The position numbers were made by a program, and so were the translations under genes. Of a DNA stretch of 42,339 nt, positions 11,948 to 19,533 are shown one piece after another. Below the pieces are notes generated by a model, which saw only the letters and a list, made by a program, of their open reading frames with translations, was not told where the DNA came from and did not search any database. Source of the DNA: Rhodothermales bacterium (GTDB lineage Bacteria > Bacteroidota > Rhodothermia > Rhodothermales > JAHQVL01); assembly GCA_034439735.1 (NCBI GenBank), contig JAWXAX010000122.1, positions 1-42,339 on the forward strand, read 5' to 3'. The stretch's first letter is position 1. Each line of letters starts with the position of its first letter.

Positions 11948-13120
11948 ATGTCTCTCGGTAGAAAAATTCGATACGGAATGGTGGGCGGCGGCCCGGGCGC
12001 GTTTATCGGCGCGGTGCATCGCAAGGCCGCGGCGCTGGACGGTGAGATTGAACTGGTGGCCGGCGCTTTCTCGTCGTCGCCCGAGAAATCGGCCCAGCAG
12101 GGCCGTGAGCTCTACCTCGACCCCGCGCGTGTCTACGGTTCCTACAAAGAAATGGCGGATCGGGAGAGTAAGCTGCCGCTCGGCGAACGGATCGACTTCG
12201 TCTCCATCGACACCCCGAATAACTCGCATTATGAGATCGCGAAGACGTTCATCGAAGCCGGCTTCCATGTCGTGTGCGACAAGCCAATGACGATGACCGT
12301 TCAGGAGGCAGAGGACCTCTGCCGGCTCGTCAAGAAGTACGACGCCGTATTCACCCTCACCCATAATTACACCGGCTACCCGATGGTGAAAGAGGCGCGG
12401 CACCTCATCCGCGCCGGCAAACTGGGCACCCTCCGTAAGGTGGTCGTGGAGTACCCCCAGGGCTGGCTCGCGACCTTCCTGGAAGGCGATGGCGCCAAAC
12501 AGGCGGTGTGGCGGACGGACCCCAAGCAGGCCGGCGTCTCCTCGGCCATCGGAGACATCGGCTCCCATGCTGAAAACCTCGCACGGTATATCACGGGGCT
12601 GGAGATCGAACGCATCTGCGCCGACCTCACCACGTTCGTCCCGGGCCGGAAACTCGAGGACGACGCCAACATGCTGGTGCACTACAAAGGCGGCGCCCGC
12701 GCCGTGTTGTATTGCTCACAGGTGTCCGTGGGCGAGGAGAACAACCTCAAGATCCGCGTCTACGGTACGGAGGCCTCCATCGAATGGCACCAGGAGCATC
12801 CGAATTACCTGTATTTCCGCCCGGCTAGTGGTCCGGAAGAGGTGCTCAAGCGCGGCAACGGCTACCTGAGCGATGCCGCTAAGCACCACAGCCGGCTCCC
12901 CTCCGGCCACCCGGAGGCGTTCCTTGAGGCCTTCGCCAACATCTACGTCAACGCGGCTCGTACGATCGCCGCGAAGTTGGCCGGCGTCAAGCCGGGCCCG
13001 TTCGACACCGACTTCCCCACCGTCCAGGACGGCGCCGTTGGCGTCCACTTCATCCATAAAGCCGTCGAAAGCGGCCAGAAAAAAGGATGGGTCGATGCCG
13101 GCTACACCCCGCCCACATGA
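11948..13120 (+). CDS. Gfo/Idh/MocA family oxidoreductase (cytoplasmic)
   Basis: 390 residues without a leader. The N terminus has [14 protein letters not shown] (Rossmann, residues 8-21), [16 protein letters not shown] and the catalytic CDKPMTMT at 110-117. [15 protein letters not shown] supplies the conserved acidic and His residues of the C-terminal domain. The protein lies in an isomerase/oxidoreductase run and shares this layout with inositol and levoglucosan dehydrogenase-type clusters. Its cytoplasmic location contrasts with the exported homologue at 9476, so two successive oxidation steps in different compartments are possible. Confidence 0.93.
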
Positions 13121-13143
13121 TCAACGCCCATTTGCTGAATCAC

Positions 13144-13325
13144 CAATCGCTTAATCGCTAATCGCTTAATCGCTAATCGCTAATCGCTTAATCGCTAATC
13201 GCTTAATCGCTAATCGCTTAATCGCTAATCGCTTAATCGCTAATCGCTTAATCGCTAATCGCTTAATCGCTAATCGCCTAATCGCTAATCGCTTAATCGC
13301 TAATCGCTTAATCGCTAATCGCTAA
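13144..13325. repeat. 15-bp (7+8) tandem repeat array, TAATCGC/TTAATCGC
   Basis: About 24 alternating copies of TAATCGC and TTAATCGC (mostly a regular 15-mer) fill the whole spacer between two genes. Deviations are few: one CAATCGC at the left edge, two places with consecutive 7-mers, and one CTAATCGC. The array ends 4 bp before ATG 13330. There are no spacers, so it is not CRISPR. Short versions of the same words lie at 10870-10905. Confidence 0.95.
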
Positions 13326-13329
13326 CCCC

Positions 13330-14331
13330 ATGTCCCGCCCAGTAACCCTCTTCACCGGCCAGTGGGCCGACCTCCCGCTGGCAACCCTCGCCGAAAAAGC
13401 GGACGACTTCGGCTTCGACGGCCTCGAACTCGCCTGCTGGGGCGATCATTTCGATGTCCAGAAGGCGCTGTCGGACCCTACGTACTGCCAGAGCCGCCAC
13501 GACATCCTGAAGAAAAACGACCTCGGGGTGTGGGCTATCAGTAATCACCTGGTTGGCCAGGCCGTGTGCGACCACATCGACATCCGGCACAAATCCATCC
13601 TCCCGCCGCACGTCTGGGGCGACGGTAACCCCGAAGGCGTCCGCCAGCGCGCGGCGAAGGAGATGATGGATACCGCCCGCGCCGCGGCCAAACTGGGTGT
13701 CAAGGTGGTCAACGGCTTTACCGGAAGCAGCATCTGGCATCTGCTGTACTCCTTCCCGCCGGTTTCGGCCGATATGATCGAGGCCGGCTTCAAGGACTTC
13801 GCCGACCGCTGGAATCCCATCCTCGATGTGTTCGACGAGGTAGGCGTCCGCTTCGCCCTCGAAGTCCACCCGACGGAGATCGCGTTCGACATCTCGTCCG
13901 CCCGCAAAGCCCTGAAGGCCATTGGCAACCGGCCGGCCTTCGGCTTTAACTACGATCCGAGCCACTTTGGGTACCAGGGCGTCGACTATATCGGGTTCAT
14001 CGAGACGTTCGGCGACCGCATCTACCACACCCACATGAAAGATGTCTGGTGGTCCGACAAGCCTAAAGAAGCCGGCGTCTTCGGTGGCCACATCGAATTT
14101 GGTCATCGTGACAGGTTCTGGGATTTCCGCTCCATCGGCCGCGGCGCGATCGACTTCGAGGAGATCGTCCGCATGCTCAATCGTGTCGGATACACCGGGC
14201 CGCTCTCGATCGAATGGGAGGACTCCGGCATGGATCGTGAGCACGGCGCCGAGGAGGCCTGCTCGTTCGTCAAAGGCGTCGATTTCGCCCCCGCCCACGG
14301 CGCCTTCGATGCCGCTTTCGCCAAAAAATAA
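13330..14331 (+). CDS. Sugar phosphate isomerase/epimerase family TIM-barrel protein
   Basis: 333 residues, no leader. [17 protein letters not shown] opens a TIM barrel with [68 protein letters not shown] and [13 protein letters not shown], giving the usual Glu-Asp-His-Glu metal site. It matches a widespread cytoplasmic group found beside Gfo/Idh oxidoreductases. With the gene at 11948 it makes a likely functional pair, separated only by the tandem array. A role on keto sugars or 3-keto-glycosides is plausible but unproven. Confidence 0.92.
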
Positions 14332-16053: not shown

Positions 16054-17076
16054 ATGATGCTTCGTACCCGCGCGCACGCACGCGCCGGTCTGATCGGAAA
16101 CCCGTCGGATGGGTATTTCGGGAAGACGATTTCGTTCATCGTCCGCAACTTCGGCGCTGAAATCACCTGTTATGAGTCACCCCGCGTGGTCATCATGCCG
16201 GGGCCGCGCGATCATCTGACCTTCCAGAGCCGTGAGGCGCTGGTGTCGGACGTGCGGCTAAACGGTTATTACGGAGGGATCCGGCTGATCAAGGCGACGA
16301 TCAAAGCGTTCAGCGATTCCTGCGACGAGCGGGGCATCGTGCTGGACCGCCGTAACTTTACGATCGAATACCAGACGAACATTCCGGTTCGTGTGGGTCT
16401 CGCCGGCTCGAGCGCCATCATCACCGCCACGATGCGTGCGTTGATGACGTTTTACGGGGTCGAGATCGATCTGCCCCTGCTGCCCAACCTCATCTTGCGT
16501 GTCGAAACCGAAGAACTCGGCATCGGGGCCGGCCTGCAGGACCGCGTGATCCAGGTCTACGAAAACGCCGTCTACATGGATTTCGACCGCGAGCTGATCG
16601 CGCAGCAGGGGTACGGGCACTACGAATATGTCGATCTGGCCAGCCTCCCCCCGCTTTTCATCGCCTACCACGACAACCTGTCCGAGGGCACCGAGATCAC
16701 CCACAACGATTTGCGAAGCCGGTTCAACCGGGGCGACCGGGCGGTGGTGGAGGGAATGAAGACGTTCGCCGGCTTCGCCGAAGAGGCGCGCCAGCTGATC
16801 GCCACGGGGCGAGGCCGCGAAATTGGTCCGCTGATGGACGCCAACTTCGATCTTCGCGAGCGGCTCGTCCGGATCAGCGAAGGCAACATCCGACTCATTC
16901 AAACGGGCCGCCGCCTCGGCGCCCACACGAAGTTCGCCGGCTCGGGCGGCGCCATCGTTGGCGCGTACGACGGCGACCCCGAACGGCTGGAGCGGCTTCG
17001 CGCCGCCTATGAAGCCTTCGGCGCCCGCCTGATTCAACCCATCATCGAACCCATCCTACACGAGGTCCACGCATGA
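16054..17076 (+). CDS. GHMP kinase, plant glucuronokinase-like
   Basis: 340 residues from ATG 16054 (16057 is an alternative). GLIGNPSDGYFGKTISF at residues 12-28 and RVGLAGSSAIITA (113-125) are the GHMP substrate and ATP motifs. EELGIGAGLQDRV and FAGSGGAIVGAY follow in the expected order. The N-terminal phrase and the GYYGGIRLI segment match plant glucuronokinase more than galactokinase or homoserine kinase. The predicted reaction is D-glucuronate (or a related sugar) + ATP to the 1-phosphate. The stop overlaps the galU start by 4 bp (ATGA), implying coupled translation and a salvage route to a UDP-sugar. Confidence 0.85.
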   Translation: MMLRTRAHARAGLIGNPSDGYFGKTISFIVRNFGAEITCYESPRVVIMPGPRDHLTFQSREALVSDVRLNGYYGGIRLIKATIKAFSDSCDERGIVLDRRNFTIEYQTNIPVRVGLAGSSAIITATMRALMTFYGVEIDLPLLPNLILRVETEELGIGAGLQDRVIQVYENAVYMDFDRELIAQQGYGHYEYVDLASLPPLFIAYHDNLSEGTEITHNDLRSRFNRGDRAVVEGMKTFAGFAEEARQLIATGRGREIGPLMDANFDLRERLVRISEGNIRLIQTGRRLGAHTKFAGSGGAIVGAYDGDPERLERLRAAYEAFGARLIQPIIEPILHEVHA

Positions 17077-17978
17077 GCGCGAAACAGGTAAGAAAAGCCA
17101 TCATCCCAGCGGCCGGTATGGGCACGCGGTTTCTGCCGGCGACCAAGTCGATGCCCAAGGAGATGCTCCCGATCATCGACAAGCCTGTCCTCCAGTTTGT
17201 CATCGAGGAAGCCATCGCCAGTGGCATCACGGACATCCTGATCGTCACCGGGCGCGGCAAGCGGGCCATCGAGAACCACTTTGACTATGCGCCGGAGCTC
17301 GAGGCCTTCCTCGTGCAGGCGGACAAGCGTGAGCTGCTCGGTCAGATCCGAGACATCGGCGAGCAAGCCTCCATCTTCTACATCCGACAGAAAGTCCAGC
17401 GCGGCCTCGGAGACGCCATCCGTCTCGGCCGCGACCACATGGGCGACGAGCCGTTCGCCGTCCTGCTGGGCGATACGATCATTCACCCGATCGATGACGA
17501 GCGGCCCGGGTTGCGTCAGCTGCTGGACATATACGAAGAAAAACAGGCGAGTGTCGTGGCCGTGCAGAAGGTGCCCCACGAGTGGGTGAGCCGCTACGGC
17601 ATCGTCGCCGGCCGCGCCGAACCGGACAACCACGAACTCGTCCGCCTGGACCACCTGGTCGAGAAGCCGGCCGCCGGTAAGGCGCCGAGCAACCTCGCCA
17701 TCGCCGGCCGTTACGTCTTCACCCCCGAGATATTCGACTGCCTCGATGAAACGACCGAAGGCCACGGCGGTGAAATCCAGCTCACCGACGCGATGAATCT
17801 GCTGGCCCAGCGCGAGCCGATGTTTGCGCTCGACTGGCATGCGAAACGGTATGACATCGGCAATCGGGTGGAGTACGCGAAGTGTTTTCTCGACTATGCC
17901 CTGCGCCGTGAGGATACCCGCGACGCGATCCTCGAACATCTGATCAAACTGCTATCGCTTCGTCAAGAGGCGGCCTGA
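17073..17978 (+). CDS. galU: UTP--glucose-1-phosphate uridylyltransferase (GalU type)
   Basis: 301 residues. The N terminus KAIIPAAGMGTRFLPATKSMPKEMLP, read across residues 8-33, is the nucleotidyltransferase signature. EHFDYAPELEAFL-like sequence (NHFDYAPELE) and the VLLGDTI metal-binding Asp follow. GRYVFTPEIFDCL and the Lys in WHAKRYDIGNRVEY complete the active site. It converts a sugar 1-phosphate and UTP into UDP-sugar plus PPi. Translational overlap with the GHMP kinase suggests it may take glucuronate 1-phosphate; the housekeeping UDP-glucose role is the alternative. hutH follows after 4 bp. Confidence 0.95.
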   Translation: MSAKQVRKAIIPAAGMGTRFLPATKSMPKEMLPIIDKPVLQFVIEEAIASGITDILIVTGRGKRAIENHFDYAPELEAFLVQADKRELLGQIRDIGEQASIFYIRQKVQRGLGDAIRLGRDHMGDEPFAVLLGDTIIHPIDDERPGLRQLLDIYEEKQASVVAVQKVPHEWVSRYGIVAGRAEPDNHELVRLDHLVEKPAAGKAPSNLAIAGRYVFTPEIFDCLDETTEGHGGEIQLTDAMNLLAQREPMFALDWHAKRYDIGNRVEYAKCFLDYALRREDTRDAILEHLIKLLSLRQEAA

Positions 17979-17982
17979 AAAC

Positions 17983-19533
17983 GTGGCAACGGACTCGCTG
18001 GATGCATTTTTCGCTGTTGGCGATCGGGTTTCGATCCCCGGCCTGTACGAGGACCTGGACCGCCGCCGGCGGCTGCTTTCGACCTCCGCCCGGGCCGTGG
18101 AGCGCAGCCGCGCTGTCGTGGAACGAGCGCTCGCGGCCGGCGAGGTGCACTACGGGATCAACACCGGGTTCGGCTATCTCAAAAACAAGCGCATCCCTCC
18201 CGAACAGATCGAAACGTTACAGCAGAATCTGATTCTGAGCCATGCGGTCGGGGTAGGGGACTGGATTCCGCGGCCCATCTGCCGGCTGATGTTGCTGCTC
18301 AAGATCCACGCGTTGGGACTGGGGTATTCGGGTGTCTCGCCGGGGACCTTCGCACGGTTGCTGTTGCTGGCGGAGCGGGACCTCATCCCGGCGGTGCCGC
18401 AACAGGGCAGCCTTGGCGCTTCCGGGGACCTCGCGCCGCTCGCGCATCTGTCGTTGCCTCTGTTGGGGTACGGATATTTCTGGGATGAGGCCGGCGCCGG
18501 CGTGACGCCCACCGAAGAGGTTTATGCCCGTGAAGGTCTGGCCCCGATTGCACTCAAGGCCAAGGATGGGCTCGCGCTCATCAACGGCACCCAGATGATG
18601 GGCGCCTATGGCGCGTTTATTCTCCATCGAGCCGTTCACGCCGTAAAAGTGGCCGACATTCTGGCCGCCATGAGCCTCGAAGCGCTCCAGGGCAGTCTCA
18701 CCCCATTCGATCCGCGCATCCAGGCCCTCCGCCCCCATCGCGGGCAGCGTGAGGTGGCGGACAACGTCCGTGCCCTGCTGGCCGAGAGCCAGATTTTAGC
18801 GTCCCACCGCGATTGTGGCAAGGTGCAGGATCCCTACAGCCTCCGTTGCGTCCCACAGGTACATGGCGCCAGCCGGGACAGCCTGCGGCATGCCGTCTCC
18901 GTCGTCGAGACCGAGATCAACAGCGTGACCGATAATCCGTTGGTGTTTGAAAATGGGGATATTCTGAGCGGGGGCAATTTCCACGGCGAGCCGCTGGCTC
19001 TGGTGTACGATTTTGCGGCGATGGCCCTGGCCGAGCTGGCGAGTATTTCCGAACGACGCACCTACCTGCTGCTCGAGGGGCATGACGGCCTGCCGGCGTT
19101 GTTGATGAAAGAGACCGGCATTAACTCCGGCTTCATGATTCCCCAGTACACGGCCGCGGCGCTGGTCTCGGAAAACAAGGTCCTGTGCCACCCGGCATCC
19201 GTCGACTCCATCCCCACCTCGCTCGGGCAGGAAGATCATGTGAGTATGGGGAGCGTAGGGGCCCTCAAGTTGCTGCGGGTACTACATAACGTAGAGCATG
19301 TGTTCGCCATCGAAGCCTTCACCGTGGCGCAGGCACTCGATTTTCGGCATCCACTCCGGCCGGGTCGTGGCGTCGAAGAGGCCCACGGCTACATTCGCGA
19401 TCGCGTGCCGCATGGCGAAAAAGATTATTATTTCAAGAACGACTTAAACGCCTGCACCGAGATTGTGCGGAGCCCGGACTTTGTTTCGATGGTAGAAACA
19501 GCAACCGGAGCGCTTGTAGGTCTGCCGGCGTAA
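17983..19533 (+). CDS. hutH: Histidine ammonia-lyase
   Basis: 516 residues from GTG 17983, 4 bp after galU. The MIO cofactor triad Ala146-Ser147-Gly148 sits in GSLGASGDLAPLAH. HYGINTGFG, HRDCGKVQDPYSLRC, EINSVTDNPLVF, ILSGGNFHGEP, ISERR and PASVDSIPTSLGQEDHVSMG are all canonical for HutH, so this is not a phenylalanine or tyrosine lyase by motif. It deaminates histidine to urocanate. hutU, hutI and hutG are absent from the window, and its placement behind galU is unusual. Regulation would follow the GHMP-galU promoter upstream of 16054. Confidence 0.95.
   Translation: MATDSLDAFFAVGDRVSIPGLYEDLDRRRRLLSTSARAVERSRAVVERALAAGEVHYGINTGFGYLKNKRIPPEQIETLQQNLILSHAVGVGDWIPRPICRLMLLLKIHALGLGYSGVSPGTFARLLLLAERDLIPAVPQQGSLGASGDLAPLAHLSLPLLGYGYFWDEAGAGVTPTEEVYAREGLAPIALKAKDGLALINGTQMMGAYGAFILHRAVHAVKVADILAAMSLEALQGSLTPFDPRIQALRPHRGQREVADNVRALLAESQILASHRDCGKVQDPYSLRCVPQVHGASRDSLRHAVSVVETEINSVTDNPLVFENGDILSGGNFHGEPLALVYDFAAMALAELASISERRTYLLLEGHDGLPALLMKETGINSGFMIPQYTAAALVSENKVLCHPASVDSIPTSLGQEDHVSMGSVGALKLLRVLHNVEHVFAIEAFTVAQALDFRHPLRPGRGVEEAHGYIRDRVPHGEKDYYFKNDLNACTEIVRSPDFVSMVETATGALVGLPA

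Follow-up and report, generated by a model that had tools for sequence, protein, structure and literature searches.

Two overlapping genes in a 42,339-nucleotide contig of a Rhodothermales bacterium (the whole stretch analyzed, referred to here as the window) probably constitute a salvage module that converts glucuronate, through glucuronate 1-phosphate, to UDP-glucuronate by means of a dedicated uridylyltransferase; the histidine ammonia-lyase gene that lies next to them was most likely relocated to this place. The kinase would phosphorylate free D-glucuronate at C1 with ATP, and its partner, a member of the GalU family, would join the resulting glucuronate 1-phosphate to UTP; both substrate specificities are predictions from sequence. 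Together the two enzymes would yield UDP-glucuronate while bypassing UDP-glucose dehydrogenase, and the product could then enter glycans directly or via UDP-glucuronate decarboxylase, which would convert it to UDP-xylose.

All three genes lie on the plus strand. The first (positions 16054–17076) runs from an ATG at 16054 to a TGA ending at 17076 and encodes a glucuronokinase-like sugar-1-kinase of the GHMP superfamily (340 aa). Its stop codon overlaps the ATG (17073) of the galU-type uridylyltransferase gene (17073–17978; 301 aa) in a 4-bp ATGA, and hutH (17983–19533), which starts with GTG at 17983, follows after a gap of 4 bp. No promoter- or terminator-like sites above chance level were found in this region. 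The original prediction had described both the overlap and the 4-bp spacing (17978 to 17983), and the layout was confirmed; its treatment of kinase, galU, and hutH as a unit was not, as described below. Further upstream in the window (11948–14331) lies a pair encoding a Gfo/Idh/MocA oxidoreductase and a TIM-barrel isomerase-like protein; the family's two other genomes have this pair as well, likewise upstream of kinase-galU (82–84% identical).

The original prediction held direct salvage of this kind to be rare in bacteria, yet at least 565 stretches of GTDB genomes carry related kinases. Linkage was assessed in the best 80 of these at least 565 stretches, ranked by identity to the query rather than drawn at random; they represent ten named phyla, with Verrucomicrobiota and Planctomycetota foremost. 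In 50 of these best 80 loci, from at least seven phyla, galU adjoins the kinase gene, in 49 of the 50 on its downstream side and frequently with the same 4-bp overlap, and two families of the window's class (f16 and f58) have the reversed order, with galU first. Because it recurs in many phyla, the overlap of kinase and galU reflects more than chance. The two genes are presumably co-transcribed. Approximately 30 of the same 80 loci, those of Hydrogenedentota included, have no GalU gene adjoining the kinase; from four of the searched genomes GalU is missing altogether. The possibility that the gene order is unique to this strain was rejected for the kinase-galU pair and proved true for hutH, whose adjacency was seen in this genome only.

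In a number of Hydrogenedentota loci without an adjoining GalU gene (L054, L078, L085, L088, and similar), the gene next to the kinase belongs to one conserved, unrelated family. The Rufibacter tibetensis plasmid NZ_CP012644.1 (L193), typed as mobilizable, carries the kinase-galU pair, annotated as “GHMP kinase” and galU. Four genomes (G557, G549, G550, and G567; L194–L197) that carry the window-type kinase family also encode fusions of approximately 640–660 aa, in which an N-terminal galactokinase-like GHMP kinase (FGEHTDWAG) is joined to a C-terminal GalU-like uridylyltransferase, constituting a second, differently built kinase-GalU coupling.

Kinase and GalU are associated not only in position but also in occurrence. 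Of 395 phylum genomes sampled, 11, spanning five family codes, carry the kinase, and a strong GalU match was found in exactly those 11 (Fisher p = 1.3e-21, with shared ancestry ignored). Across 244 genomes of the window's class, 19 have the kinase and 20 have GalU; the GalU of the additional genome (G493, L222) displays the housekeeping residue signature and is cut by a contig end where the kinase would lie. In one genome (G190) both genes are present without being adjacent. The pairing that underlies the proposed direct route from glucuronate to UDP-glucuronate is thus both conserved and co-occurring, with substrates that are predicted, and what has been lost from the original prediction is the rarity of the route and its three-gene form. 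Nucleotide-sugar dehydrogenases are present in 18 sampled genomes without GalU, so there UDP-glucose must be made by another enzyme, and probably an enzyme other than the partner GalU supplies it in the window genome too.

The kinase matches the GHMP model PF00288 (45 bits) without reaching any equivalog, and it has the fold and motifs of a GHMP kinase. A GNPSDG motif (residues 15–20; 16096–16113) shows little or no variation across 39 aligned members of the family and is, we assume from established knowledge of GHMP kinases, the positional counterpart of the substrate motif GEHTDY of galactokinase. The phosphate-binding motif of the superfamily is represented by GLAGSSAI (residues 115–122; 16396–16419), and the invariant Asp163 in GLQDR (16540–16542), which aligns to the Asp of GGKQDQ in 3k85, is the presumed catalytic base. 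The closest solved sequences, the heptokinase HddA and mevalonate kinases, share the GHMP fold but reach only 25–26 bits by phmmer (best match 25.6 bits) at approximately 20% identity, and identification as a heptose, galactose, or mevalonate kinase was ruled out on these scores. Foldseek with the AlphaFold model (pLDDT 90.7) matched several types of GHMP kinase to a similar degree, with E values down to 7e-18. A profile of the kinase family matched no glucuronokinase in the PDB, and none of the sequence or fold matches reported was a solved glucuronokinase structure.

The likeness to plant glucuronokinases claimed in the original prediction is partly supported, in that no other solved GHMP family is close and the kinase is strongly tied to GalU. 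A provisional Arabidopsis glucuronokinase sequence, which we take as a lead only, is 40% identical to the window kinase over 331 residues, nearly its whole length. This provisional sequence has its highest identity to another family member (L063, 47%) rather than to the window kinase, and in a tree it lies among the bacterial family, away from galactokinase, HddA, and mevalonate kinase. In that tree it grouped with two family members from viral contigs (support 93/99), and long branches drew two distant rows, IspE and ThrB, into the family. The two viral kinases (L114, 5001–6020; L115, 3755–4741) are 45 and 39% identical to that of the window; the former is flanked by a RecA/UvsX-like gene on one side and by QueD and radical-SAM genes on the other, and a QueC-like gene and a second phrog_34407 protein are encoded close by.

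The foremost alternative, which we regard as possible but unlikely, is that the kinase acts at C1 of a different sugar or sugar acid, such as galacturonate or a pentose, and that GalU makes the matching UDP-sugar. The fold matches are roughly equidistant from mevalonate kinase, galactokinase, and heptokinase, such that the substrate cannot be read from them, and the Arabidopsis sequence used for the plant comparison is provisional, both of which leave room for this reading. Against it stand two loci in which a UDP-glucuronate decarboxylase gene lies downstream: in L092 it and galU share a 4-bp overlap, and L084 has it as the next gene called after galU. Both decarboxylases match human UXS1 with E values of approximately 1e-106, with the next family far behind in L092. 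Such linkages are few, two in all, and they point toward UDP-glucuronate as the product. In addition, the sequence of plant galacturonate kinase is reported to differ strongly from that of glucuronokinase (PMC3938481).

On another contig of the window genome a UDP-glucuronate decarboxylase gene adjoins one for a nucleotide-sugar dehydrogenase, and the predicted glucuronate-activating pair would therefore be a second, added route, that is, one of salvage. The free glucuronate may perhaps come from polysaccharides. Myo-inositol oxygenase (PF05153), the source in the plant-type oxygenation pathway, was not found in the window genome and was rejected as a source here; it was present in three of 22 kinase-bearing genomes searched.

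A second alternative, less probable again, is that GalU is an ordinary UDP-glucose pyrophosphorylase and that the kinase adjoins it since both feed nucleotide sugars generally. The protein does score above the equivalog cut-off of TIGR01099 (352.6 bits; cut-off 326.8), is the only strong match to that model in the window genome, and retains the catalytic Glu197 and Lys198 as well as Asp261, and alignment of the GD(T/S) motif identifies Asp134 as the Mg-binding residue. However, 384 of the 395 genomes in the phylum sample have no strong GalU match, and kinase-bearing Acidobacteriota have a second, housekeeping GalU. In a tree that was built quickly and contained several long branches and only a handful of housekeeping GalUs, all 64 kinase-linked GalUs grouped within a single branch comprising 74 rows (SH-aLRT 99). 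E. coli GalU lay outside this branch, as did the second copies from those Acidobacteriota.

Consistent residue differences at or near the sugar site also argue against an ordinary UDP-glucose enzyme. The position following the Mg-binding Asp, which coordinates glucose in the UGP of Pseudomonas aeruginosa (PMC11796359), is Thr in the window (Asp134-Thr135; 17472–17477), whereas UDP-glucose enzymes have Asp or Val. Thr occupies it in 55 and Ser in two of 59 sequences of the main partner clade and Ser in 15 of 15 from the f16/f58 clade (Thr or Ser in 72 of 74 overall), as against Asp or Val in seven of seven housekeeping GalUs and Asp in the four solved GalUs shown. Arg174 (17592–17594), immediately before the sugar-binding Tyr-Gly, is found in 55 of 59 members of the main partner clade and in none of the seven housekeeping enzymes, and His114 is replaced by Asp in most of the main clade; most f16/f58 GalUs have neither this Asp nor the Arg. 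The residue preceding GRY is mostly Ala or Ser in the partner clade versus Val, Ile, or Met in housekeeping and solved GalUs. The housekeeping counterparts of Thr135, Arg174, and Ala211 of the window enzyme are Asp, Ala, and Val, respectively. Separate branching and sugar-site substitutions place the window enzyme outside the UDP-glucose-specific subgroup; it looks like a specialized paralog rather than the ordinary UDP-glucose enzyme, and its clade has probably changed in sugar specificity.

That the three genes form one functional operon tying histidine breakdown to glucuronate activation, as their 4-bp spacing on one strand and the single copy of hutH in the genome might suggest, is very improbable and already largely refuted, since hutH adjoins the pair in none of the best 80 of at least 565 loci, a close relative (L017, L162) has the same Kelch gene after galU and no hutH, and in another genome of the family (G254:C188, L225) hutH lies between hutU and hutI. 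On these grounds hutH was rejected as a functional partner of the salvage pair; it is a passenger, an accidental neighbor outside the module. Its product scores 601 bits against TIGR01225 (cut-off 539) and has the triad Ala146-Ser147-Gly148 (18418–18426), which in the HutH family forms the MIO cofactor. Histidine ammonia-lyase genes are commonly, although not obligatorily, located in hut clusters, and that of the window is not. The family member G254 has a regular hutU-hutH-hutI-hutG cluster (hutU and hutH identified by search, hutI and hutG from position and sequence), whose HutH is 73% identical to that of the window; on another contig of the window genome (G000:C141, L223) hutU adjoins hutI, with no hutH between them. 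With the cluster intact in G254 and hutH missing from between hutU and hutI here, relocation is most likely. The simplest account is thus that this is the genome's ordinary histidine ammonia-lyase gene, moved out of the hut cluster in this lineage; we infer both the direction and the timing of the move.

The predicted glucuronate module may be compared with two eukaryotic systems. Plant and zebrafish enzymes have been shown by assay to be glucuronokinases, the latter accepting no other common sugar, and in zebrafish and Xenopus a glucuronate-selective glucuronokinase is fused to a nucleotidyltransferase, a putative UDP-GlcA pyrophosphorylase (DrGKUP; PMC3938481). The bacterial pair resembles the plant route in its GHMP sugar-1-kinase and two-step logic, but plants use a UDP-sugar pyrophosphorylase where a GalU-family enzyme is found here, and the window genome lacks the myo-inositol oxygenase. 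With DrGKUP it shares the coupling of a nucleotidyltransferase of bacterial size to a glucuronokinase, fused in animals and encoded by separate overlapping genes here. The literature covered, which excluded most subscription journals, yielded no account of a bacterial glucuronokinase, only this plant and zebrafish work and mentions of predicted function. The module is probably a bacterial variant of the pathway known from plants and fish, and the three-gene arrangement a chance outcome of genome rearrangement.

On balance, we lean toward the broader view that the protein annotated as “GalU” in Bacteroidota-type bacteria, Verrucomicrobiota, Planctomycetota, and their relatives is a separate glucuronate-1-phosphate uridylyltransferase, the partner of a bacterial glucuronokinase. 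If so, many genomes would be misannotated for UTP-glucose-1-phosphate uridylyltransferase and would carry instead a complete salvage path from glucuronate to UDP-glucuronate. The residues that distinguish the partner clade would constitute a testable set of candidates for changing the substrate of a uridylyltransferase from glucose to glucuronate. The pair would also provide enzymes for the synthesis of UDP-glucuronate from glucuronate, a reaction for which the pyrophosphorylase domain of the zebrafish protein yielded only traces of product (PMC3938481). Direct salvage of glucuronate, known from plants and some animals, would then be widespread in several bacterial phyla.
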